From a virus, in the IMG/VR virus record IMGVR_UViG_3300032331_001632, positions 1-26,760 of that record: a DNA stretch of 26,760 bases; one strand, written 5' to 3'. The first letter of the stretch is position 1, and each line of letters starts with the position of its first letter. The position numbers and the translations under genes were made by a program. Positions 4,478-22,346 of this stretch are shown here, in pieces. The notes beneath the pieces are model-generated. The model had not been told where the DNA came from, searched no databases, and saw only the letters and a program-made list of their open reading frames with translations.

Positions 4478-5309
4478 CGCACCAGCAGCACCGAACTACC
4501 AGGAGTCAATGAAATCGATCTTGCAAGCGCAAGTTCAGATGGCTCCGGAAGTATATGCGCGCGAAGCTGAGTACCAACCTAAGTATCAGCAGCTACAAGC
4601 GCAGATACAGGCTCAATCTGCTCAAGATCAACTAAAGCTATATGGTCAGTTGCAACCGGAGTATTCCGCGCTTGAAGCTAACTATATGCGTGCGCAGCAG
4701 GCAGCGCAGCAAAAAGCATTACAAGAACAAGCTCCCGATTACCTTAAAGCTTTCCAACAGGCTTCTGGCACATATGACACCAATCAGGCATTGCAGCAAT
4801 ACGGCCAGCAAAAGCTAGCGCAACTTAATGCCAATGGGACTTACTTGTCTCCAGAGGAACAGCGTCAAATTGATCAACAAACTCGTGCTGGATATGCCTC
4901 CAGAGGAACGGCATTAGGCCAGCAAGCCAATCTTAGTGAGGTGCTAAATCGTTACCAGTACCGCCAAGGACGCGAGCAACAGTTGCTGGGCACTGGAATG
5001 CAACTTGGGCAGTACCAGGCTCAAGCTGCTGCTCCTGCCTTGCAATCATTCTATCAGCAACCTATGTATGCTGGCGCGTTTGGCGGTCAGGCTCTTGGTA
5101 ACGCAATAGGAAGTCAGCAGCAGGCTGGCCCATCGTTGTTTAACCCAGAGTCCCAGACTGGTATGGGAAGTATCTACGGCGCGTATAACTCGCAGCTAAA
5201 CCTTGCTGCGGCACAAGCGCAAGCTAATGCTGCTTCAAGTGCTGGTAAGAGCGGCATGTTTGGTTCTATTGCTGGCGGTGCGCTTATTGGGGGCGGGTTG
5301 GCATACTAA
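4452..5309 (+). CDS. internal virion / ejection protein, gp14-like
   Basis: This 285-residue protein is extremely rich in Gln and Ala, starting M-G-K-G-G-T-T-I-N-A-P-A-A-P-N-Y. Long helices with Y-Q-x-x-Q-A-Q patterns fill residues 20-190. The C-terminus is a glycine-rich hydrophobic segment (S-I-A-G-G-A-L-I-G-G-G-L-A-Y). This composition and layout match T7 gp14-like ejection proteins, which leave the capsid and insert in the outer membrane to start the DNA-translocation channel. The start ATG lies inside the previous gene and the stop forms TAATG with the PP-loop gene downstream. No enzymatic motif is visible. The assignment rests on composition and neighbours. Confidence 0.6.
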   Translation: MGKGGTTINAPAAPNYQESMKSILQAQVQMAPEVYAREAEYQPKYQQLQAQIQAQSAQDQLKLYGQLQPEYSALEANYMRAQQAAQQKALQEQAPDYLKAFQQASGTYDTNQALQQYGQQKLAQLNANGTYLSPEEQRQIDQQTRAGYASRGTALGQQANLSEVLNRYQYRQGREQQLLGTGMQLGQYQAQAAAPALQSFYQQPMYAGAFGGQALGNAIGSQQQAGPSLFNPESQTGMGSIYGAYNSQLNLAAAQAQANAASSAGKSGMFGSIAGGALIGGGLAY

Positions 5310-6166
5310 TGAAACTGGGAACAAAAACTAGAGCAATAGTTGTAATTCAACGTGCACTTAAAAACGCAAGGCGACCTGCCGTACTTTGGAGTGGCGGCAA
5401 GGATTCCACTGTATTATTACACCTTGCACAGGAGATACGCCCTGACATTGAAATGATTCACTTCAAGCTGCCGTTTCTTCCTGAAAAGTACATGCATCAT
5501 CATAAGGTGCAGGAAAATTTGAACATCACGGTTCACGATTGGCCGCCTGTCTCGATTGCGTTAGTCCATGGGAATGATCGCATAGACGTTTGTGAGACGT
5601 ACTCTCTTGGTGAAGGCACGCTAAAGGTGATGCGTGGCACTGAGCCGTTTGAGCCTAATCATGCCTGGGTATGCGGCAGGGAATGGCTTAATAGGCCAAA
5701 AGCGCACGTAGTTAATGACTTTGACGTGTTGTTGTGTGGACACAAGAATAGTGACGAGGATCCTATTACAGGAGCAATTCCACTTGAAGTTGACCGAAAG
5801 ATTCTAGGAACCAACACTGCCATGTGGTTTCCTTTGCGTAATTGGACGGACGAAGATGTTGCTAATTACATTCTGCAAAATGGAATTGCATACGACACGC
5901 AACGGTATGACTCTGATGTCGTCAGCAAGCCTGACAAGCATCTAAACTCTGACTACGTGCATACTTGCTTTAGGTGCGTTGACAAGCGCGAAGGCAAGTT
6001 TGTGCATTGTCCTAAACATAATATAGATATAGAAAATATACATGAACAAGTATTGCACGAGCAGCCAGTTAGTGCCTACTGCAATGTCAGAACTGGACTG
6101 CAAGACCTGCGGAGCTTGTTGCGCTCACAAGTGGAGCTGGCCGATATTGCGTCGAGACAGGAGTGA
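5309..6166 (+). CDS. PAPS reductase-family PP-loop protein
   Basis: This 285-residue protein has the PP-loop ATP-pyrophosphatase motif S-G-G-K-D-S at residues 28-33 and the adenylyl-sulfate-reductase-like body (D-V-L-L-C-G-H-K near 139-146; F-P-L-R-N-W-T-D-E-D-V-A-N-Y-I near 174-188). The E-C-G-L-H catalytic motif of true CysH enzymes is absent. C220-x-x-C223 and C234 form a possible metal site instead. Such phage proteins are annotated as phosphoadenosine phosphosulfate reductase, but the substrate may be something else, for example in sulfur-based modification. It sits between ejection genes, coupled by TAATG to the gp14-like gene. Residues 259-285 are read from DNA that also encodes the next gene in another frame. 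Confidence 0.8.
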   Translation: MKLGTKTRAIVVIQRALKNARRPAVLWSGGKDSTVLLHLAQEIRPDIEMIHFKLPFLPEKYMHHHKVQENLNITVHDWPPVSIALVHGNDRIDVCETYSLGEGTLKVMRGTEPFEPNHAWVCGREWLNRPKAHVVNDFDVLLCGHKNSDEDPITGAIPLEVDRKILGTNTAMWFPLRNWTDEDVANYILQNGIAYDTQRYDSDVVSKPDKHLNSDYVHTCFRCVDKREGKFVHCPKHNIDIENIHEQVLHEQPVSAYCNVRTGLQDLRSLLRSQVELADIASRQE

Positions 6167-8270: not shown

Positions 8271-11200
8271 ATGGAACAAAATCCAAACCCTAATGCTGGG
8301 CTTGAGGTGTTAACTGATGTTGTTCCTGCTGGAACCACCATTCAACTTCCTAATCATTTTGATGAGAATGGCAATCCTGTTAAATTACAGATCAACCAGG
8401 ACATACGGCAAAAAGACCTACAGCAACAACTTGATATTCATTATCCAAATGATGTTAATGCGCTGGCTAGGCAGATGGCGTTTGGTTCTCCCGATCAAGC
8501 AAGCAGAGTAACTCAAGAGCAGTTCAATGATGTGCTTGATGCTGCTTCTGCTAAAGAAGAAGTAGATAAGGTTCGCGGTATAAAGTCTGATAACCCTGGC
8601 TTTTTTGCTTTAGCGGGGAATGTTCTTCCTCATATTGTTTCTGATATTACTCATGGCTTGGTTGAAACCGCCAAACAGGTTGGTATTGCTGGTATGCCAA
8701 TGGTTGGTGGGTTGCAAAATGCCGAAAGTTTTAAGCAACAAAGCTATGCTGTTGCAAAGCTTGTAGAAGGCGTTGCCGAGGGAACTGAGCAGTTTGCTAA
8801 TGCAACTGAACTCCTTGCAAGGGCTGGATTGTTGCAACAAAGTAATGTCAATAAGTATGCGATGTATAATATCGCAAAAGACATGGAGTTAAACGACCAG
8901 CAACGCAAGGCTGGTGATACTCTTTTATTTGGTCAAAATCCTGAGATTGGAGCAAGTGCTGCACTAACCAAGAATGTTCTTGATTTAAGCTTGATACTTC
9001 CTGGAGTCGCAAAGCTTGCTGGAGGATTAAGCAGGGCGGGAACCGAGGTGGCCGCTCAATCCATAAAGGCACTAGCCGAGGAAACTGGCGTTGGAATGGC
9101 TAGGCAGCTTGCTGGCAATGTAATGGCTGCGACTGGTGATAAAATTGCTGCTGGGGCAAATGCAACGCAAGTTCTTACATCTTCCTTAAAAAAAGGAATT
9201 GGCGTTGGTGGACAAGTTGCTGCTGGCTTAGGCGCAATCCATGTAGCAGAAGAAAACCCATACTTAGCAGGTGGTCTAGCCTTGCTTGCTGTTGGTGCTC
9301 CGGCAATAGGAAGTGTTGTTGGCAAAGGAATGCAGTTTGCAGGAAAGGCCCTTGCAACTGATTCAGCGGTTCTTGCTGGCAGAGAAATCCTTCAACAAGG
9401 GTCTAGAAATGCTGCTGAAGACTTTGCTATTAGAACAGCACTTAGTCTTACACCTCCAGATTCTGTTGTAAGAACCATTGGCAGTGTGCTGGATTCTTCG
9501 GTGCATGGTGCTGCTATTGGGGGTGGGCTTGCCTATGGACAAGCAATGTCTGATCCATTTGCTTCCGCTGGCGAAGTGGCACAAAACACTATTGTAGGAG
9601 CAGTTGGCGGTGCTGCGGCTGGCATGACTTTAAGTGGAGCAACTCACTTAGCTTTTCGACCAGAGTTTAGCAAAGGTGCTCGTGACTTAAATTACGCACG
9701 AAATGTTGCGGCTGACATTCAGTCTAGGCCAAACGAGCGCAGTGTTATAATTGACAATCAAGAGATCAAGTCCAACGACAAAGACAACAGAATCAATCTT
9801 TTAGTTAGAAGCGACATCCCTACTGGAGATAAGGCCAGAATCAATTCCGTACTTAGGAGTGCTGAAGCTGCGGGCCATGATGTTATTTTTGTAAATAACG
9901 ACACTGCACTTCCAGATATGCTGGGTGGTAGGGGCGAGCAAATGGGTAAGGGCGTTGTGGTTTCAAATGATGCCAGCACAGGCAAGAGCACGATCATAAT
10001 CAACTCTGATAAGATCACTCCGGCCTCAGCTATTGAGGAGGTTTCTCATGCTGTGATTGGCGATCAGATGGCAACTGATATTCTCAAGAGTTTGATGAAA
10101 GAAGGCGGCGGGATTAGCGGTGCGCTTGATAAGCTAACGCCGTTTGCAGATCGCTATATCTCAACGCAACGCGAAAGCAATCCAGCCGCAGCGGACGCGC
10201 TTAAAGCCAAGCTTGACATAGCCAAGCAAACAAACATTTCGGAGAATGAGCGGATGGCAGCACTGCTTCCTATTGTGCATGAGTATGCGGCAATGGGTAG
10301 TGGCGAGATGCTAAAAGGTCGTCCTCCAGAGTTGCTAGAAACTGGCATCTCTCGAAATGTGTGGATAAATGCTGCACACAATGTTCAATCTTCGCTTGGA
10401 ATGCTTCCTTCTGGAGCAACCAAAGATCCAATTACTGGCTTCTTTTGGAAAGACGGCAAGATCACGGACGACAAAGTTTTGCAGGGCGTTTCCAAAAATA
10501 TTAGCGACTTTATCAAGTCTGGAAGAGCCCCAGTTGGCATTAGTGCAGTCCCATCAGACGTACCAATCGGCACAAGGAGAACCGCTGGCAAGTCTGCGGA
10601 GCCTCCTAAAACGGGATATGAACCTGGGGACATTGCACCTGATGGTGGTCGTGTGGTTGGTGAAGTTCCTCACGTTCGCTACGAAGACAAGGTAGTTGAC
10701 CAAAAGACGGGACAACTGCGGCAATCTAAAAAGTCAGAACAAGACAAGATTCATGGCGATGTATTTAAGTTGGCATCCAAAATACTTGGCACAGAAAACA
10801 TTGACCCACAGAGATGGGAACAAGGCATTTATGGCGGTAATGTGTCGGTTGGCAATGGCGGTAAACCAATTATCTACAAGGACACGCCATTGTCCACGGC
10901 GGAGTTAATGGGGTTGTTCTCATTAAAAGATCACTTTGGCAACTTTATTATTAAGCCAGAAAATCAACAGCATGTTGAATTACTCAACGCATCAATAGGT
11001 ACTGGCAATATTGTTAATCTTGATAGTGTTGTTAATCTAAACAGAAATACATCTAATCGAGATTATAAAACTAGAGTAAATGGCAAGGCGTTAATACTTG
11101 GCTTTCAGCAAACACCAAAGGGTGGGATACATGTATTAACCTATGATTTATCATTGCTTGATAACTTAATAAATCATGAACGTGGAATAACTGAAGTAAT

Positions 11201-13481
11201 TAATAAAGCACTCAAAGAGTACAAAATTAACTCTTTAGATGACGCTGTGCCTTATGTTAAAGCCTACCTTGAGAACTTATCTCAAAGTCAAGCAATGCCA
11301 TCGGCATTTAAGCTGGCATTAGTTGCTCCAGATGGAGCTAGCGCAACAAGCGCAACAGTGCTGCGAGATGTGTTTCATTTGGCTGGAGGATTGGATCAAA
11401 GGGCAGAAAGCACCACAGACAGGCTATTAAATCAACCTCTCAAAGAAAGGTTTGAGGGATTAGTTGAGCCAGGAAGACCTCGTGATCAAAGCGTGTTCAA
11501 CAATCGTCGCCTTGACGATATTCTCGGTGCTTCTTTGTATCAGCCTGAGGGATCTCCGGTATCCATCAAGGTAGATAAGAGCAAGATGATCAGCCGTTAC
11601 AGGGCCAACTTCAGCCCTGATACATCTCCTGTAGAGAATCTAGGAGACAGCAAAGTCATCACTGATCCCATTGCAAAAGAGCGGATTATTGTTAATCCAA
11701 ATGGCAAGGCCACTTTGTTCTTGGAAAATGGCAGGAAAGTTGTGCTTGCATCTGAGCAAGAAGCAATCGACTACAGCAACAAGGAGCTGGCAAAGTCTCG
11801 TGCAAGGTTCTCTCCATCGTCCAGAGAAGACATGCCTGAAGGCCCAGTTTTCACGAGAGAACAAGCCCAGCAAAGAATTGACAGTGCTGCTGATTGGGAA
11901 TTTGTCTCGATGCTTAAAGATAGGGACAAAAATCAAAAAAGAATTGAACGCACCTATAACAGGTTTTTGACTTCAGATAAATCCTCAAAGCGCATTGAGG
12001 CACTTAATAATGCTGTTGATGTTATTCAAGAAAACGCTGGCATCAAGATCGACAAAAACAAGTTTCCGTTCTACACAGAGCGTGGTGGTGCTCCTGCCCT
12101 ATATAGGGAAATGCAGCAGTCTATAAGTAAAGCATATCCTGAACTTACTGATCTATTTAAGTTAGGTGAGCTTGAACATCAAGTCCAAGGAAAAAAATCT
12201 TTTGGAATGTCTCTTGATCTATTTCCCGTAATAGAAGGACGAGAGACATACTCAATGAAAATTGGACGAGAAATGTCAGAACTTACTGACAAAATTGTCC
12301 AAAAGTTTAAAGGCAAAATTTCAAATGCTGATGCTCTTAAAAAGGCAACTCAGGTCTATGATTCAATCACAAATGTCTTTTCTAAGACAGAACGTGATCT
12401 GGTTACGGACAAAATAAACAACGAGTTCATTGCTCTTGTTGACGCAACCAGACCATCTTCTGGAGGTCAAAATGTTCGCTTCTCTCCAGATACAGAAGGC
12501 TACCAAAGATACACGGCAAAGGAAAAGAAGCAGCTAGAAGTGTACATTCGCAATAAAGATATTCGCGATGGCACTGCGTTTAAGGAGCTTTGGGCGGCAC
12601 ACGATGCCATGTTGCGTGGCAGGCAAGAAACAGAAGGCGGCGACATTCCTGCTTGGGTTCAAGCAAAAGAAATACGTAGCGACATTGAACGTGAATCTCA
12701 GACTTTGATGCGGAAACGCAGGAAAATGGCACAGACCATTCGCGAGGACTCGATTGCATGGCAAGCAGAAGACAAGCCTCCAGTTTATGATCCTGAGTTG
12801 ATTGAACCTAGCAAGGGCCGCAAGCCAAAGCTTGAGCGCAGACAAATGTCTCAATCAGAACTAGAAGCTGTGACCGAGGCTGCTGGTTATAAGCCACCAG
12901 TTGGCAAGCCCGCTGAAGTTCGGCCAAGTCAAGTTGTGAAACCTGGCACAACACTTAAGTCCTTGCAGGATCTTACTGGCCTGCAAACGTATGCGCCTAG
13001 TCCCAAGGCTGAGGCTGTTGTGGCTGTACAAGCTGCACCAACAACAAGGCCAAATGTGACGGATTTAATTTCACAAAAGCGTGTTCCGTTTAGGGTTATA
13101 CCGATTAAAACGGAAACTGTTACTGGCTTTTTAAAAGAGCTTTCTGGCAGCAAAAGTGCGCTTTATGAACAAGCCGTACAACAACAAATGGCATCTGAGC
13201 CAACCACTTATACTGAGCCTCGAAAGGCGGCAACGCCTCCTCCACTTCCTCCAAAGCAGACAGCCGTTGAAGGCTTGGTGTCTGCCATAGATGATCCTGC
13301 CATTCCTCCAACTCACATCATTCAACCTATGCCAAGCGGCAAGTTTAAGGTGTGGTCAGTTGGCAGGCAAGTTGTTGACGCCATTACAGAAAGCTATCAA
13401 GACGCTGTTAAAGCGGCCCAAATCAAACGACAGGCCGAACAGAAGGTGAAATCAACCAGAATGCGCCGTTATGCCCCTTAA
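8271..13481 (+). CDS. giant ejection / internal virion protein (gp16-position)
   Basis: At 1736 residues this is the largest gene. It has a helical N-terminus and two glycine/alanine-rich hydrophobic blocks (about 310-360 and 410-460) that could insert in membranes. Residues 520-600 are alpha/beta and contain E589-E-V-S-H593, which resembles a zincin HExxH with the first His replaced; H670-E follows later. Long charged regions carry three F-S-P motifs (F at 1114, 1180 and 1404). A Pro-rich segment near 1645 precedes a basic C-terminus. No lytic transglycosylase motif like that of T7 gp16 was found by eye. Size, position after two Q-rich proteins and hydrophobic blocks support a DNA-ejection role. 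A polyvalent or multi-domain injected protein is an alternative reading. Confidence 0.7.
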   Translation: MEQNPNPNAGLEVLTDVVPAGTTIQLPNHFDENGNPVKLQINQDIRQKDLQQQLDIHYPNDVNALARQMAFGSPDQASRVTQEQFNDVLDAASAKEEVDKVRGIKSDNPGFFALAGNVLPHIVSDITHGLVETAKQVGIAGMPMVGGLQNAESFKQQSYAVAKLVEGVAEGTEQFANATELLARAGLLQQSNVNKYAMYNIAKDMELNDQQRKAGDTLLFGQNPEIGASAALTKNVLDLSLILPGVAKLAGGLSRAGTEVAAQSIKALAEETGVGMARQLAGNVMAATGDKIAAGANATQVLTSSLKKGIGVGGQVAAGLGAIHVAEENPYLAGGLALLAVGAPAIGSVVGKGMQFAGKALATDSAVLAGREILQQGSRNAAEDFAIRTALSLTPPDSVVRTIGSVLDSSVHGAAIGGGLAYGQAMSDPFASAGEVAQNTIVGAVGGAAAGMTLSGATHLAFRPEFSKGARDLNYARNVAADIQSRPNERSVIIDNQEIKSNDKDNRINLLVRSDIPTGDKARINSVLRSAEAAGHDVIFVNNDTALPDMLGGRGEQMGKGVVVSNDASTGKSTIIINSDKITPASAIEEVSHAVIGDQMATDILKSLMKEGGGISGALDKLTPFADRYISTQRESNPAAADALKAKLDIAKQTNISENERMAALLPIVHEYAAMGSGEMLKGRPPELLETGISRNVWINAAHNVQSSLGMLPSGATKDPITGFFWKDGKITDDKVLQGVSKNISDFIKSGRAPVGISAVPSDVPIGTRRTAGKSAEPPKTGYEPGDIAPDGGRVVGEVPHVRYEDKVVDQKTGQLRQSKKSEQDKIHGDVFKLASKILGTENIDPQRWEQGIYGGNVSVGNGGKPIIYKDTPLSTAELMGLFSLKDHFGNFIIKPENQQHVELLNASIGTGNIVNLDSVVNLNRNTSNRDYKTRVNGKALILGFQQTPKGGIHVLTYDLSLLDNLINHERGITEVINKALKEYKINSLDDAVPYVKAYLENLSQSQAMPSAFKLALVAPDGASATSATVLRDVFHLAGGLDQRAESTTDRLLNQPLKERFEGLVEPGRPRDQSVFNNRRLDDILGASLYQPEGSPVSIKVDKSKMISRYRANFSPDTSPVENLGDSKVITDPIAKERIIVNPNGKATLFLENGRKVVLASEQEAIDYSNKELAKSRARFSPSSREDMPEGPVFTREQAQQRIDSAADWEFVSMLKDRDKNQKRIERTYNRFLTSDKSSKRIEALNNAVDVIQENAGIKIDKNKFPFYTERGGAPALYREMQQSISKAYPELTDLFKLGELEHQVQGKKSFGMSLDLFPVIEGRETYSMKIGREMSELTDKIVQKFKGKISNADALKKATQVYDSITNVFSKTERDLVTDKINNEFIALVDATRPSSGGQNVRFSPDTEGYQRYTAKEKKQLEVYIRNKDIRDGTAFKELWAAHDAMLRGRQETEGGDIPAWVQAKEIRSDIERESQTLMRKRRKMAQTIREDSIAWQAEDKPPVYDPELIEPSKGRKPKLERRQMSQSELEAVTEAAGYKPPVGKPAEVRPSQVVKPGTTLKSLQDLTGLQTYAPSPKAEAVVAVQAAPTTRPNVTDLISQKRVPFRVIPIKTETVTGFLKELSGSKSALYEQAVQQQMASEPTTYTEPRKAATPPPLPPKQTAVEGLVSAIDDPAIPPTHIIQPMPSGKFKVWSVGRQVVDAITESYQDAVKAAQIKRQAEQKVKSTRMRRYAP

Positions 13482-15217: not shown

Positions 15218-15970
15218 ATGATAAAACTTACAATAACAACAAAGGCAGGAACTACAGTTAGCTTAGACATCCCAGAGGTGGACGAAGTAACGCTCGAAAA
15301 TAAGCTTCACGAAGCCCTGTCTGCTGTGGTCTATCCAGACGGCTATGACACCCCAGTAGAATCGCCAGCTACGGCCCAAGAAACACGCCAAGCTAGTAGC
15401 AACGATGAGGAGGTTTCGAGGGTTGATTGTTTTGGTGAGACGTTCTTACCTTCGGACTTGTTACCGTCAGCAAAACGATATAAGTCAGTACAAGAAATGC
15501 TCTTAGCACAGGGAATTGATCTTGCAATCCTCGCGAGCGATACCGGGGAAAAGATGGAGGAAGGGGAGGTAGGAGGGGAAGAGAGGGGTTGCAAGGGGGG
15601 AGAAGGGGAGGTGGAGGGGAAGGAGGAAGAAAAACCTGAGAGAATTTATGATCTTGATCATACCGTGGAGACCGCTTTGGACTTATTCCAGTTTCCTTGT
15701 GAGAATGGTATTTACATACCACCAATGCAGTTAACCCGCGATTTCGTTTTAGCATTTGGAGAGGAGCATACAACAAGGGAGTTTCTTAAAGCTCGTTCAT
15801 GGCTAATTGCCAATCCAACTAATCGTAAAACTCAACGTGGAATGGGGCGGTTTCTTAATGCTTGGTTATGTCGTGAAGCAGGCATGAAACGTACTCCGAT
15901 TAAAGAATCGAAAACCATAAAATCAGACTCATTATTATCGAATGGAACAGAAAACTCGCAGGGTTGGTAA
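15218..15970 (+). CDS. putative replication accessory protein with acidic/Gly linker
   Basis: This 250-residue protein has three parts. Residues 1-105 are alpha/beta without recognised motifs. Residues about 110-142 are a low-complexity Glu/Gly linker encoded by a G-rich purine tract. The C-terminal domain (about 148-230) carries T-R-E-F-L-K-A-R-S-W-L and N-R-K-T-Q-R-G-M-G-R-F-L-N-A-W-L. The pattern R-K-T-x-x-G-M-x-R-F-L-x-x-W-L is common at the end of phage replication-organiser or helicase-loader proteins. Its last 29 bases overlap the helicase gene that follows, which supports a role in loading or partnering that helicase. Loader function is inferred. Confidence 0.6.
   Translation: MIKLTITTKAGTTVSLDIPEVDEVTLENKLHEALSAVVYPDGYDTPVESPATAQETRQASSNDEEVSRVDCFGETFLPSDLLPSAKRYKSVQEMLLAQGIDLAILASDTGEKMEEGEVGGEERGCKGGEGEVEGKEEEKPERIYDLDHTVETALDLFQFPCENGIYIPPMQLTRDFVLAFGEEHTTREFLKARSWLIANPTNRKTQRGMGRFLNAWLCREAGMKRTPIKESKTIKSDSLLSNGTENSQGW
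15545..15634 (+). repeat. G-rich polypurine tract inside a coding region
   Basis: About 90 bases are nearly pure purine on the + strand, with at least six runs of four or more G, one of six. It encodes the Glu/Gly linker of the protein at 15218-15970. Such a tract can form G-quadruplexes in single-stranded DNA or RNA, and stands out from the surrounding base use. Confidence 0.75.
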
Positions 15971-16715
15971 GGCAGATATTGACTTGTCCAAGGTTCCGCT
16001 CGCAACTGAGACTGAGAAAGGCATAGCCAGCATCGCGGTTAACCACCCCGATGAGTTTGTGAAGGTAACGGCTGAGAAAAGGTTTTCTCCACTCGACATC
16101 TTTCATCCACTCAGCAAGGCAGTTGTTGAAGTGGTGCTATCTCAAGCTTCTCGCAGTTCCGAGTGCGATATTAGGATCGTGTTTGAGAAGGTGCGCGAAC
16201 GCTTGCCTGACGTTCAGTTTCACGAGTTGTCGGACATTTACACGCTAATGCCAATCAAAGGCGCACTGCCGGAGTACATCCAAACAGTGCGATCTGTTGC
16301 AAAGCGTAGGACATTAATGGCAGTGTTGGCGCAAGCTAACATGGACATTGGCGACGCGCAGATTAGTACCGCTCAGTTGTTATCGGACATATCCATGCAG
16401 GCAGACTCGCTTAGTCACGAGCTAGCTCCACCGTCTCCAATGGATACCAAGAAACTGTTGATGGAGGCCATTACACGGTACGAAACAGGAGACGATCACA
16501 CAGAGCGAATCAGAACAGGCTACAACAAATTAGACAATCTAACCCCAATCCGCTACGGTGACTTTTTGGTTATCGGCGGCGAAACAAAGTCCGGCAAAAC
16601 CATGCTGGCACTCAACATTATAGCAAATATCATATGCAACTTATCAACCTCACCCCACATCGCATTAACGTCCACGGAAAAACCATTGAACCAACAGGGT
16701 ATGTTTCCCGCATAA
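15942..16715 (+). CDS. DnaB-type replicative helicase, N-terminal half (split gene)
   Basis: This 257-residue protein holds the helical DnaB N-terminal domain (about 20-150; P-L-A-T-E-T-E-K-G-I-A-S-I-A near the start, L-P-E-Y-I-Q-T-V-R-S-V-A-K-R-R near 110-124). It then enters the RecA-fold core: G-Y-N-K-L-D-N-L, the strand D-F-L-V-I-G-G and Walker A G212-G-E-T-K-S-G-K-T220, followed by the P-loop helix M-L-A-L-N-I-I-A-N-I-I ending at residue 231. Residues 232-257 are read from the next gene's DNA in another frame and do not resemble DnaB. Walker B and the remaining motifs are absent here and present at 19266-19853. The start overlaps the accessory gene by 29 bases. It probably works with that second half. 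Confidence 0.85.
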   Translation: MEQKTRRVGKADIDLSKVPLATETEKGIASIAVNHPDEFVKVTAEKRFSPLDIFHPLSKAVVEVVLSQASRSSECDIRIVFEKVRERLPDVQFHELSDIYTLMPIKGALPEYIQTVRSVAKRRTLMAVLAQANMDIGDAQISTAQLLSDISMQADSLSHELAPPSPMDTKKLLMEAITRYETGDDHTERIRTGYNKLDNLTPIRYGDFLVIGGETKSGKTMLALNIIANIICNLSTSPHIALTSTEKPLNQQGMFPA

Positions 16716-16942
16716 ACAGCGTGCAGAGCCAGGTCGAGTTAATCGACGGCATTCCGATCCTTGTTTCAACCGTTACGGAAGCTACACACTTACCCCCGCC
16801 TGAAAAGGGAGTTTACTTCATCTGTGCTGCTATCGTGCGCTTGTCAGCACCGCATCGGAAGGACTTGCTGTCCCCCGCAAAGTTGTTGCGTGATAACAAT
16901 GGTTCTGTAGTTGGCTGTGCAGCATTTGAGCGTAATCCATGA
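16634..16942 (+). CDS. conserved phage protein with LTPH motif
   Basis: This 102-residue protein begins M-Q-L-I-N-L-T-P-H-R-I-N-V. It continues with a beta-rich body (G-I-P-I-L-V-S-T-V, G-V-Y-F-I-C-A-A-I-V), then R-K-D-L-L-S-P and a closing G-S-V-V-G-C-A-A-F-E. This 'INLTPH...IPI...LP...G...DL..P......G...GC..F' order recurs in small phage and actinobacterial proteins of unknown function. It starts inside the last codons of the helicase N-half (82-base overlap) and ends by ATGA overlap with the TGT-like gene. It is the first gene interrupting the helicase. No enzymatic motif can be identified. Confidence 0.7.
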   Translation: MQLINLTPHRINVHGKTIEPTGYVSRINSVQSQVELIDGIPILVSTVTEATHLPPPEKGVYFICAAIVRLSAPHRKDLLSPAKLLRDNNGSVVGCAAFERNP

Positions 16943-17619
16943 ATGTAATGCCAGCAAACGCGACTGGTTGGTTCTGGCATTGTCTTGCCAGAGAAATAGG
17001 ACGCATTGGGCACTTGTTTAGTCCAGGTGCAGAACGTGGCCCGTGGCCTTGGATGCCTTATGCGTTAGATAATGGCGCATTTAGCGCATGGGATCAGAGC
17101 AACAACATCTGGAACGAATCGAAATGGGATATCAACGCATGGCATAGGATGATCTTTTGGGCGCAAACACAAGAGCAGAAACCATTGTGGGCGATTGTGC
17201 CTGATTGGATTGGTGATGGTCAAAAAACCATTGAGCGTTATCACCAATTCAAAGCTGAAATTCCCTTTCCGCTAGCACTAGCAGTGCAAAACGGGATGAC
17301 GGCAGAGGCAGCTCGTGAATTGAATCCAGAGGTTATTTGCGTTGGTGGCACTACCGAATGGAAATGGGAAACCGTAGAGATGTGGGCAAAAGAGTTTCCG
17401 CGAGTCCATGTTCTCAGGGTCAACAGTCCTTCAAAGTTGGATTACCTTGAATCTTTGGGGATTGAAAGCTGTGACGGCACGGGCTGGAATCGCGGAAGTA
17501 GGGATCAAACCATAGGCTTGGAACTATGGGCAAGAAAAAATCCACAACCACGCACGGATTTGTTAACCCCATATACTTGCAGGCAACAACGTGACAAATT
17601 ACAAATTACATTTGCATGA
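16939..17619 (+). CDS. DpdA/TGT-like TIM-barrel transglycosylase (deazaguanine)
   Basis: This 226-residue protein shows a TIM-barrel strand series with acidic residues where the tRNA-guanine transglycosylase/DpdA superfamily has them: A-L-D44-N-G-A-F-S-A-W, V-P-D89-W-I-G-D93, L-A-L-A-V-Q-N-G-M, V-G-G-T-T-E-W-K near 135-142, R-V-N-S-P-S-K-L near 160-167 and S-C-D179-G-T-G-W. These segments are those seen in phage DpdA-like proteins that swap guanine for a 7-deazaguanine in DNA. No preQ0 synthesis genes (FolE, QueD, QueE, QueC) occur in this window, so precursor would come from the host or from genes elsewhere. It is coupled by ATGA on both sides. A different TIM-barrel function cannot be excluded. 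Confidence 0.6.
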   Translation: MNVMPANATGWFWHCLAREIGRIGHLFSPGAERGPWPWMPYALDNGAFSAWDQSNNIWNESKWDINAWHRMIFWAQTQEQKPLWAIVPDWIGDGQKTIERYHQFKAEIPFPLALAVQNGMTAEAARELNPEVICVGGTTEWKWETVEMWAKEFPRVHVLRVNSPSKLDYLESLGIESCDGTGWNRGSRDQTIGLELWARKNPQPRTDLLTPYTCRQQRDKLQITFA

Positions 17620-18146
17620 GCCCGCATGAGTTACACAAAAACTGGAAAATAAACATGAAAATGGATGTTGGCTTGATTGGCCTTGCTGGAAGCGGCAAGG
17701 ATACGGCAGCTATTGGCTTGGTTGCTAATGGTTGGCTTAGAGAAGCGTTTGCGGATCACTTGAAACATTTGGCCCTTGAGTTTGGCTGGAATGGGATTAA
17801 GGACGCAAAGGGCAGGGCATTACTGCAAGACTTGGGAATGGCTGGCAGAAAATACAATCCTGACTGCTGGGTTGAACATATAACTTACAAGTTGAAATTG
17901 CAGTTGAAGTACCGCGAATTATGGCCGCGAGTCTGGACGGATGTCAGATTCCAAAACGAGGCTGATTTTGTCAGAAACAGGGGTGGAATCATCATCCGAA
18001 TCAACCGCCCAGAAATAATTGCAGAAAAACACGAATCAGAGCTAAAGCAATCGGACATAGTTGCCGATTACACTGTAGACAACATTGGAACGATCCAAGA
18101 GTTGCGAGACAAAGTGCTAGAAATCACCAAACAACACAATAGATAA
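17616..18146 (+). CDS. deoxynucleoside monophosphate kinase
   Basis: This 176-residue P-loop kinase has G22-L-A-G-S-G-K-D-T30 followed by a short lid and W-L-R-E-A-F-A-D-H-L-K. The core L-L-Q-D-L-G-M-A-G-R-K-Y-N-P-D-C-W and V-W-T-D-V-R-F-Q-N-E-A are typical of phage dNMP kinases (T4 gp1 type), which phosphorylate dNMPs to dNDPs for the phage nucleotide pool. The family normally begins a few residues before the first strand, so M14 (17655) may be the real start. The ATG at 17616 forms the usual ATGA overlap with the upstream gene and is kept here. Sits within the genes separating the helicase halves. Modified-base specificity, given the DpdA-like neighbour, would be speculative. Confidence 0.8.
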   Translation: MSPHELHKNWKINMKMDVGLIGLAGSGKDTAAIGLVANGWLREAFADHLKHLALEFGWNGIKDAKGRALLQDLGMAGRKYNPDCWVEHITYKLKLQLKYRELWPRVWTDVRFQNEADFVRNRGGIIIRINRPEIIAEKHESELKQSDIVADYTVDNIGTIQELRDKVLEITKQHNR

Positions 18147-18150
18147 GATT

Positions 18151-18921
18151 ATGATATACAGAAACATGCCAATGGCCGAATACCGAGGACAGCTTGGATT
18201 ATCCAAGCATCAATTAGACGACTTTGCAGTTGCTCCGTCCTACTACCTGCACCGCAAGCAGCAGGAATGGAAGCCGTCCCGATCAATGGAAATGGGCACG
18301 CTCATTCACGCTTTGGTGCTAGAGGGGCGTAAGGAGTTTGCAGTTGGCCCGCAAGTTGATCGTCGGACTAAGGATGGCAAGGCCGAATGGCAAGCCTTCT
18401 GCGAGGAGAACATCGGACTGACTATCATTAACGACGAGGAAGCGGCAGTGATTAAGGGCTGCTACGAGTCTGCACTGCCATTGCTTGGCAAGGTAAAAGC
18501 TGACTTTAACGATGACGTAGAAATGTCCTTGTTTTGGCAGAGGAAGGGCATTCACTGCAAGGGCAGGCCGGATCTTATCGGTGAGATCAACGGTGAACTT
18601 GCCATCATTGACCTGAAGACAACCAATGACATTCGGAACTTCGATAGCAGCTTCTATCGTTTTCGCTATGACGTGCAGGCGGCGTGGTATCAGCGCGGGG
18701 CAAAGATTGCTATGAACCTTGAGGAGATGCCAGCGTTCTGGTTTCTTGTAGTTGATACCGAGGCTCCGCACTTGGTGCAGTTCATGCGTTGCTCTACTGA
18801 GTTGTTAGAGCAGGCTAATGAGCGAATTGAAGATGACTTGACCTACTTCAAGAAGTGCCAGAGTGAAGACGTTTGGCCTGGGTTGCCGGAGATGAAGTTG
18901 ATTTTGCCCCGCTCTTGGTAA
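18151..18921 (+). CDS. RecE/exonuclease VIII-like PD-(D/E)XK nuclease
   Basis: This 256-residue protein follows the RecE-like exonuclease layout: L-S-K-H-Q-L-D-D-F near 18-25, G-T-L-I-H53-A-L-V-L-E-G at 49-59, C-K-G-R-P-D141-L, I-I-D154-L-K156-T-T and Q176-A-A-W-Y180. These are the metal-binding and catalytic positions of the family, which degrades one strand of double-stranded DNA to give recombinogenic ends. No single-strand annealing protein gene is recognised beside it, although the OB-fold-like gene at 13723 could partner it. Its stop shares an A with the next ATG. Confident at family level; the exact polarity and substrate are inferred from relatives. Confidence 0.85.
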   Translation: MIYRNMPMAEYRGQLGLSKHQLDDFAVAPSYYLHRKQQEWKPSRSMEMGTLIHALVLEGRKEFAVGPQVDRRTKDGKAEWQAFCEENIGLTIINDEEAAVIKGCYESALPLLGKVKADFNDDVEMSLFWQRKGIHCKGRPDLIGEINGELAIIDLKTTNDIRNFDSSFYRFRYDVQAAWYQRGAKIAMNLEEMPAFWFLVVDTEAPHLVQFMRCSTELLEQANERIEDDLTYFKKCQSEDVWPGLPEMKLILPRSW

Positions 18922-19190
18922 TGGCAATTCCTAAAGCGTATGCAGTACTTAGGCGCACGGAAGTAATAGGCGACAACCTTAAGCTTCCGCGCCCTAAGAT
19001 CACCCAAGACGTAGCACTTATTGGAGACAAGGAAACCTGTATGGAGTTTCTGGAAGAGATGTCCAGACTTCTCGTCAATCAATCTACCGACATAATTAGA
19101 GTAGACTTAACGTGCGTACCCTACACAGGACAAAGAACATATAACTCAAAAGAAGTAACAAAAAACAATGGCAAACCTAAAAGTACTTAA
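18921..19190 (+). CDS. hypothetical protein, 89 residues
   Basis: This 89-residue protein starts M-A-I-P-K-A-Y-A-V-L-R-R-T at a TAATG overlap with the exonuclease gene. A TTG 48 bases upstream in the same frame lies inside the exonuclease and is not preferred. It has an alpha/beta look (T-C-M-E-F-L-E-E-M-S-R-L-L then I-I-R-V-D-L-T-C-V) and a polar Lys/Asn tail. No family is recognised. The last 23 bases overlap the coiled-coil micropeptide downstream. It travels with nuclease and helicase genes, so a DNA-metabolism accessory role is possible but unproven. Confidence 0.6.
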   Translation: MAIPKAYAVLRRTEVIGDNLKLPRPKITQDVALIGDKETCMEFLEEMSRLLVNQSTDIIRVDLTCVPYTGQRTYNSKEVTKNNGKPKST

Positions 19191-19266
19191 AGAATTGAAG
19201 CAGAAGATCTGCGACTTAGAGCAAGAGATCATCAAGTTAAAGCTGGAATTAGCTGCTAAAAAGTAA
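19168..19266 (+). CDS. coiled-coil micropeptide just before helicase C-half
   Basis: This 32-residue frame begins M-A-N-L-K-V-L-K-E-L-K-Q-K-I and continues as a single amphipathic helix with Leu/Ile in heptad positions and alternating Lys/Glu, ending A-A-K-K. It is a clear short coiled coil. Its TAA shares an A with the ATG of the helicase C-terminal half (TAATG), so the two are probably translated together. It could help dimerise or dock the split helicase, or be a translational coupler. It is too short for routine gene calling. Support is the composition plus tight overlaps on both sides. Confidence 0.5.
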   Translation: MANLKVLKELKQKICDLEQEIIKLKLELAAKK

Positions 19267-19853
19267 TGAAGCCAGGAATACTTGTAGTATCGCTGGAAAT
19301 GCCAGCCAGCCAGATTATTGACCGGATGGTGGCTAAGATTGGCAACATCTGCCTCCGCAGTTTGTCCGAGGGGATTAAGTTGGAACCTCAGATGCGAGGA
19401 GTCCAAAAAGCTCTGAGCATCTTGAGCAACACGAACATCGTCATCCGTGACGACCTGCATGACATTGCAAGCATCATTGCCACTGCTCGCGCTATGGCTA
19501 AGTCTGAAGGTGGCCTCAAAATCCTCCTTGTGGACTATATTCAGTTAGTGCGGTGCGAGCTGGGCCGTGAAGGCACTCGTGAGCGTGAGGTTGCCGAGGT
19601 TAGCCGTGGGTTGCGGCTACTTGGCCTTGAGTTGAAGTGCTTGGTAATCGGCATCACCCAGCTTAACGAGCAGGGTAAGGCCCGTGAGTCACGAGCAATT
19701 CAACAGGATGCAACGTGTATTATGGCCATCAAGATGGACGAGGAAGCTGGCGAGACTCGCACAATCGGCATCCCGTACCAACGAAATGGCCCTTGTGGAG
19801 TACAGACAACATTGAAATTCAACGGGAGGACTGCATCATTTCTTGATGCTTAA
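19266..19853 (+). CDS. DnaB-type replicative helicase, C-terminal half (split gene)
   Basis: This 195-residue protein is the missing part of the helicase core. It begins M-K-P-G-I-L-V-V-S-L-E-M-P (strand 2 and motif H1a of DnaB, where E. coli has K-P-V-L-I-F-S-L-E-M-P). It continues with I-L-L-V-D90-Y-I-Q-L (Walker B), V-S-R-G-L-R-L-L-G-L-E-L, I-T-Q-L-N (H3), S-R-A-I-Q-Q-D-A-T and R173-N-G-P with F-N-G-R-T-A-S-F at the end. It has no Walker A. The N-half ends exactly where this begins in the DnaB fold. All catalytic residues are intact, so a two-chain helicase is likely. RecA-type relatives with complete cores exist, but the lack of a P-loop here argues against an independent ATPase. Confidence 0.85.
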   Translation: MKPGILVVSLEMPASQIIDRMVAKIGNICLRSLSEGIKLEPQMRGVQKALSILSNTNIVIRDDLHDIASIIATARAMAKSEGGLKILLVDYIQLVRCELGREGTREREVAEVSRGLRLLGLELKCLVIGITQLNEQGKARESRAIQQDATCIMAIKMDEEAGETRTIGIPYQRNGPCGVQTTLKFNGRTASFLDA

Positions 19854-21695: not shown

Positions 21696-22346
21696 ATGAA
21701 AAACACTACAAACACCACACTAGAAAACTTCACCCTTTCCGATACTAGCAAAATGCCTTGCAAATCGTGGAGCGTCACCGCTTTAGCTTGCAGTGTAGGC
21801 TCCAAACTTGCGCAAGTCTCTGGCTCTGTGTGCCATGGATGCTACGCGCTAAAGGGATTCTACCGAATGCCCAACGTAGCGAGCGCGTTGCACAATCGCC
21901 TTTCGCTGATGGCTTTACCGGGATGGCATAGGGCGATGATTGCAAAGATTAAAGCCGAAGAAAAGTCGGGCTTCTTTCGTTGGTTTGATTCGGGAGATTT
22001 GCAAAGCCTGCGCAATCTCAAAGATATCGTGCGCATTGCCATAGCCTTGCCGAAAATTCGCTTTTGGTTGCCGACTAAGGAATTCGGAATCGTTTCAGAA
22101 TACTATGAACTATACGGGCCATTCCCTGATAATCTAAACGTGAGACTATCCGGGTACATGGTGGACAAAGCAGGACCCGATTCTCTCGCCGAGAATATGG
22201 GACTCACCACAAGCGAAGTGCACACAAAGGAAGGCGAGGCGCAAGAAAAGCATCTTTGCCCTAGTTCAAAGCAAGGGAACAAATGTTTAGACTGTCGAGC
22301 ATGTTGGTCTAAAGACGTTCAAACTGTTGTTTATCGCCTCCACTAA
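21696..22346 (+). CDS. GP88-family protein (Cys-rich, function unknown)
   Basis: This 216-residue protein matches the phage 'gene product 88' family: K-M-P-C-K-S-W-S near 19-26, C46-H-G-C49-Y-A-L-K-G-F-Y-R-M-P-N-V, W-F-D-S-G-D-L near 96-102, R-F-W-L-P-T-K-E near 122-129 and a C-terminal cluster C188...C197-x-x-C200-x-x-C203. The cysteines look like a metal or Fe-S site; the S-G-D and T-K-E elements recall a TIM-barrel-like enzyme, but no reaction is established. It sits alone between terminator-like hairpins with its own leader, like a moron. Its stop is one base before a micropeptide start. Confidence 0.75.
   Translation: MKNTTNTTLENFTLSDTSKMPCKSWSVTALACSVGSKLAQVSGSVCHGCYALKGFYRMPNVASALHNRLSLMALPGWHRAMIAKIKAEEKSGFFRWFDSGDLQSLRNLKDIVRIAIALPKIRFWLPTKEFGIVSEYYELYGPFPDNLNVRLSGYMVDKAGPDSLAENMGLTTSEVHTKEGEAQEKHLCPSSKQGNKCLDCRACWSKDVQTVVYRLH

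Follow-up and report, generated by a model that had tools for sequence, protein, structure and literature searches.

The window analyzed here, by which we mean the whole stretch of DNA under study, comes from a virus record and runs to 26,760 bases; it is probably a fragment of a larger genome. It carries endolysin, structural, replication, and terminase genes. Elsewhere in it are a PAPS reductase-like and a GP88-like gene (positions 5309 to 6166 and 21696 to 22346; Pfam PF01507 and PF17338, respectively) and a 1736-aa open reading frame (ORF) without a PHROG match (8271 to 13481). The initial annotation reported a replicative helicase divided between two ORFs, and both were found on the plus strand at the positions given there, 15942 to 16715 and 19266 to 19853.

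The upstream gene (the N half, 257 aa) encodes a DnaB N-terminal domain, the linker, the first strand of the core, and the Walker A motif (GGETKSGKT) with its helix. The downstream gene (the C half, 195 aa) encodes the second strand with the catalytic glutamate (SLEM), Walker B (LLVDYIQL), the QLN sensor, and the QRNGP arginine finger. We take the glutamate to be the E of SLEM and the finger to be the R of QRNGP, as is established for the family; the residue two before the finger is Tyr, Phe, Ile, or Trp in the split family and Lys in E. coli DnaB. Both assignments rest on ORF calls, Pfam, PHROG, profile comparison with the G. stearothermophilus DnaB 2r6a, and Foldseek. Starting just upstream and overlapping the start of the N half is a 250-aa gene (15218 to 15970) that has no family match and whose middle part is a Glu/Gly-rich low-complexity stretch; it occupies the position where unsplit phages such as phiEt88 have replication protein O.

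Five clear genes, all on the plus strand, lie between the two halves. Directly 3′ of the N half is a 102-aa gene of unknown function (16634 to 16942; phrog_30542/phrog_21731), followed by a 226-aa gene, also of unknown function and present in some relatives only (16939 to 17619; phrog_15826), a deoxynucleoside monophosphate (dNMP) kinase-like gene (17616 to 18146; phrog_139, E = 8e-33), an exonuclease VIII-like PD-(D/E)XK nuclease gene (18151 to 18921; PF12684 and phrog_412, E = 3e-54), and an 89-aa gene of unknown function that, by comparison with relatives, usually sits just 5′ of the C half (18921 to 19190). The initial annotation had counted six intact genes here; the sixth may be a plus-strand ORF of 32 codons (19168 to 19266), read from the sequence, with the heptad-like translation MANLKVLKELKQKICDLEQEIIKLKLELAAKK. 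This ORF looks like a coiled coil and is matched in the closest relatives only. No homing endonuclease was recognized among these genes with Pfam or PHROG, and scans of the split-helicase region for promoters and terminators gave nothing above chance level.

Position of the break and ends of the two genes

The two proteins divide the DnaB profile almost without remainder. On Pfam DnaB_C (255 positions), the N protein aligns to positions 2 to 61 and the C protein to 51 to 253; on phrog_19 (DnaB-like replicative helicase, 621 positions), they cover 153 to 377 and 384 to 580. The N-protein profile covers residues 11 to 230 of 2r6a and the C-protein profile residues 233 to 436, and because the two abut, almost nothing has been lost at the break, which falls in the loop after the P-loop helix at a cost of about 2 residues. 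The initial estimate of a break between the P-loop helix and strand 2, with some three residues missing, was thus about right. Foldseek searches with single-chain models returned DnaB chains as the top matches for each half, and the N half also matched isolated DnaB N-terminal domains, in keeping with the presence of that domain and the linker ahead of the motor (2r6a residues 11 to 230). Walker A is confined to the N half, and SLEM, Walker B, QLN, and QRNGP are confined to the C half, so the full set from Walker A to arginine finger is present across the two proteins. The motif content first described, an N-domain and Walker A without Walker B upstream and the remaining motifs without a P-loop downstream, is borne out by Pfam, PHROG, and motif checks. 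The C protein had also been said to begin at the SLEM strand; its start lies eight residues before SLEM.

That start is a methionine exactly eight residues before SLEM in every one of 72 distinct N/C pairs (described below), and an in-frame stop lies 0 to 20 codons upstream of this ATG in 58 of them. In the window, the in-frame stop is a TAA two codons before the ATG, and the stop codon of the 32-codon ORF overlaps the ATG as TAATG. Given the conserved ATG and the in-frame stop close upstream, the C half is very probably translated on its own. Two relatives (L041 and L042) have long C ORFs of 323 to 365 aa, which we considered as fusions to the upstream gene and rejected; the extension is open frame 5′ of the same ATG and does not resemble the upstream gene's protein. 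At the other edge of the gap, the N half of most relatives stops a few residues past SGKTMLALNIIAN, ending in ALNIIANLL or a few residues later, and its stop codon overlaps or adjoins the beginning of the gene that follows. In the window and its closest relatives, the N half continues for ∼26 more residues (after residue ∼230), overlapping the gene at 16634 to 16942 in another frame. We take this tail, which most other relatives lack, to be lineage specific.

Conservation of the split among related phages

Related loci were collected by querying IMG/VR with both proteins and with alignments, and by one scan of bacterial genomes. They comprise 72 distinct N/C protein pairs from IMG/VR contigs and one Verrucomicrobiota MAG, with 32 representatives that share less than 97% C-half identity. 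The search for the same split in related contigs, proposed at the outset, found it without exception: all 72 pairs have the same break, with both genes on one strand, N first, and 1323 to 3641 nt between them. As first claimed for the window, the halves stand in order on one strand and keep their catalytic residues. Walker A, SLEM, and DYxQL occur in 72/72 pairs, and QLN and QRNGP are absent only from genes cut by a contig end. Pairwise identity is as low as 39% among N halves and 64% among C halves, and the split is therefore old relative to this group.

Profile searches of the retrieved loci found no fused N-C ORF in environmental loci; fusion was seen in this set only for the DnaBs of a Bordetella and an Erwinia phage and for the host DnaB of the MAG itself. 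All 24 long contigs (37 to 44 kb) have exactly two PF03796 matches, at ∼2 to 48 and ∼47 to 255 of the profile, and the same search detected no intact DnaB copy in them. The window is a 26.8-kb fragment, and an intact DnaB elsewhere in its own genome is excluded only via these relatives and not directly. The DnaB hallmark of an entire motor in one polypeptide is thus absent from the window (two ORFs), from all of the pairs, and from all of the long contigs. Two observations had been named that would overturn the original reading, namely, halves contiguous in the true genome and a complete helicase elsewhere beside decaying halves; among the relatives, neither was seen, the latter in the 24 long contigs. 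An unsplit close relative that could represent the ancestor was not identified in the retrieved loci or in 388 Verrucomicrobiota genomes, where a search at E = 1e-30 returned nothing besides the split MAG copy and a distant unsplit DnaB (418 aa).

Both halves are under purifying selection, as estimated from the sequences by the Nei-Gojobori method for pairs with dS between 0.05 and 1. Median dN/dS is 0.049 for N (maximum, 0.10) and 0.039 for C (maximum, 0.09). Distances among N halves correlate with those among C halves (r = 0.97), a correlation that is also expected from shared descent in one phage genome.

The contents of the gap are partly shared. The gap of all 32 representatives contains a homologue of the 102-aa gene, which in most cases overlaps the N stop codon, together with one of the exonuclease VIII-like gene. 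The 89-aa gene occurs in 30 of these gaps and the dNMP kinase gene in 20; the remaining gap genes differ from relative to relative. HNH endonuclease genes occur in the gap of two representatives only (L128 and L145). The 226-aa gene is 90% identical to its counterpart in L016/L033, a relative that is otherwise ∼50% identical, and this disparity in sequence identity suggests a recent transfer between the window phage and an L033-type phage.

The only host hint found is a split-DnaB phage contig (L099; JAFMIZ010000069.1) binned in a MAG of Pedosphaera (Verrucomicrobiota). It suggests a verrucomicrobial host, but it is one MAG contig only and may be a binning error. Among deposited phages, the C half is ∼36% identical to its best match, and nothing matches the N half at E = 1e-5. 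When unsplit N parts were used to query deposited phages, no further split case appeared among the matches listed. PHROG 23150 (217 positions, function unknown), which we compared with the window's N half and with L105:2299-3690, aligns with no more of DnaB than its N part and stops where the split lies. Its members may, judging from this alignment, include other split or truncated DnaB genes.

A probable helicase core built from two chains

The DnaB motor of this group of uncultivated phages is very probably built from two proteins rather than one, because the break is the same, and under strong selection, in every relative examined; the complex as such is inferred. What we observe is that the gene is split, that the split is conserved, that the halves are complementary, and that selection acts on both. 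In the mechanism that we propose, fission of an ancestral single-chain phage dnaB would have separated the P-loop helix from the second core strand, other phage genes would have ended up in the gap, and each part would use its own start codon. The N chain would supply the N-terminal domain, linker, first strand, and P-loop, and the C chain would supply the catalytic glutamate, Walker B, the sensor glutamine, and the arginine finger. The two would pair noncovalently into a composite RecA-like core, and such cores could assemble into a hexamer of heterodimers, with six chains of each kind. Three polypeptides would then contribute to every ATP site, with the P-loop from an N chain, the glutamate and Walker B from its partner C chain, and the arginine finger from the neighboring C chain. 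Since the first strand of a RecA-like fold sits within the central sheet, N would be expected to add a strand to the sheet of C, an inference from the known fold. We hold this noncovalent, separately translated arrangement with good confidence, with assembly, stoichiometry, and activity being inferred. AlphaFold models of single halves are confident for the N-terminal domain (∼90) and poor at N residues 190 to 235 (∼50 to 67) and over most of C residues 133 to 195 (mostly under 50). Low confidence at the parts expected to pack against the missing half is suggestive only, since shallow alignments may also explain it.

Could the halves instead be joined covalently, by a split intein or a split group I or II intron, into an ordinary single-chain DnaB? 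Fractured genes with split inteins have been described, as have introns in phage genes (Dassa 2009, cited in PMC12350094), and the HNH endonucleases in two of the gaps could be read in the same direction. Against an intein, just 11 to 37 residues follow GKT in the N half, ∼11 of them native helix, and with only Met plus 7 native residues ahead of SLEM, no C-intein can exist; for lack of tails at the break, we exclude a split intein. As for an intron, no Rfam match reached gathering scores in the window or in five relatives, and none appeared across 16500 to 19400 at E ≤ 1, which leaves a highly diverged intron possible. Joining of either kind must also contend with the in-frame stop that closely precedes the window's C ATG and with gap genes that vary between relatives, and we regard it as very unlikely. 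Misassembly or a decaying broken gene has nothing in its favor beyond the split itself. It is countered by 72 distinct pairs from many separate metagenomes and by complementary ORFs that are open throughout, with invariant motifs and dN/dS of ∼0.05 in both; we treat misassembly, chance, and a pseudogene as refuted by the relatives, leaving this account a negligible chance.

A different possibility is that the phage uses the host's DnaB and that its own halves have separate roles, the N half binding host helicase or primase, for example, and the C half acting as a regulator. The N-terminal domain does fold alone in the model, and a host enzyme is on hand, with the host's presumed own DnaB, a 500-aa protein in the MAG, being a possible alternative source of helicase. 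Yet neither half alone has a complete ATP site, and no family member departs from Walker A in N or from the Glu, Asp, Gln, and Arg positions in C. Complementary parts of one active site would not be expected to stay invariant if the roles were separate. Together with dN/dS of ∼0.04 to 0.05 for both halves, this makes separate roles improbable, if somewhat less so than covalent joining. The initial annotation had allowed for either a two-subunit core assembled in trans or joining at the RNA or protein level. Assembly in trans is well supported by the conserved split, the retained catalytic residues, purifying selection, the lack of an intact DnaB in near-complete relatives, and the C half's own start, although no complex has been demonstrated; joining is disfavored. 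Within the two-chain reading, we also entertain, as a speculation that we doubt, that obligate heteromer formation serves as a control, with C joining N rings (or the reverse) to switch on the helicase on DNA and so replacing or supplementing a loader.

Comparison with known systems and significance

Textbooks present DnaB as a hexameric motor of the replication fork whose subunits are single chains. Single-chain SF4 DnaB proteins (2r6a, phage P1 Ban, and that of Bordetella phage IFTN1) have the same domains and motifs in the same order, whereas the split phages use two genes, broken within the RecA-like core after the P-loop helix. The unsplit DnaB-like helicase of a Verrucomicrobiota genome (G204, locus L337; 418 aa), from the same phylum as the MAG with one split copy, is likewise one continuous chain; it is 38% identical to the C half and shares the stretch QLNxQGKxRESRAIxQDA.

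Phage enzymes made of two polypeptides are known. NrdA of phage Aeh1 is in two polypeptides, reassembles, and retains activity, and the phage 25 DNA polymerase parts 43A and 43B copurify and are active (PMC2988022). As in those Aeromonas phage cases, which reassemble without splicing, the split DnaB is a core DNA-metabolism enzyme present as two complementary polypeptides. In contrast to them, it is a different enzyme, several ordinary phage genes lie in the gap with no homing endonuclease in the window's, and the split is common to a diverse group. For a need for both pieces and their assembly, as in Aeh1 NrdA, we have indirect support only, from selection and complementarity. Fractured genes with split inteins (Dassa 2009) similarly have separated parts with other genes between them, but the split DnaB has no intein halves at its break. 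A mitochondrial parallel is the fission of cox2 with a multi-ORF gap (PMC5374615). A literature search for split DnaB or DnaB gene fission found no report, although its coverage was partial and absence is not proven. With two-polypeptide phage enzymes and the DnaB helicase both known already, we rate as the new part the division of a replicative hexameric motor, with P-loop and catalytic glutamate on opposite sides of the break, as a fixed trait of a whole group.

Because family models score the N half weakly, the split class has probably been overlooked in annotation. A stable and widespread split lineage would mean that a RecA-like motor tolerates natural fission at the loop between P-loop and glutamate. 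Such a helicase would offer a natural system in which either side of an ATP site could be labeled, titrated, or mutated without changing the other, and it bears on how the DnaB ring is opened and loaded.
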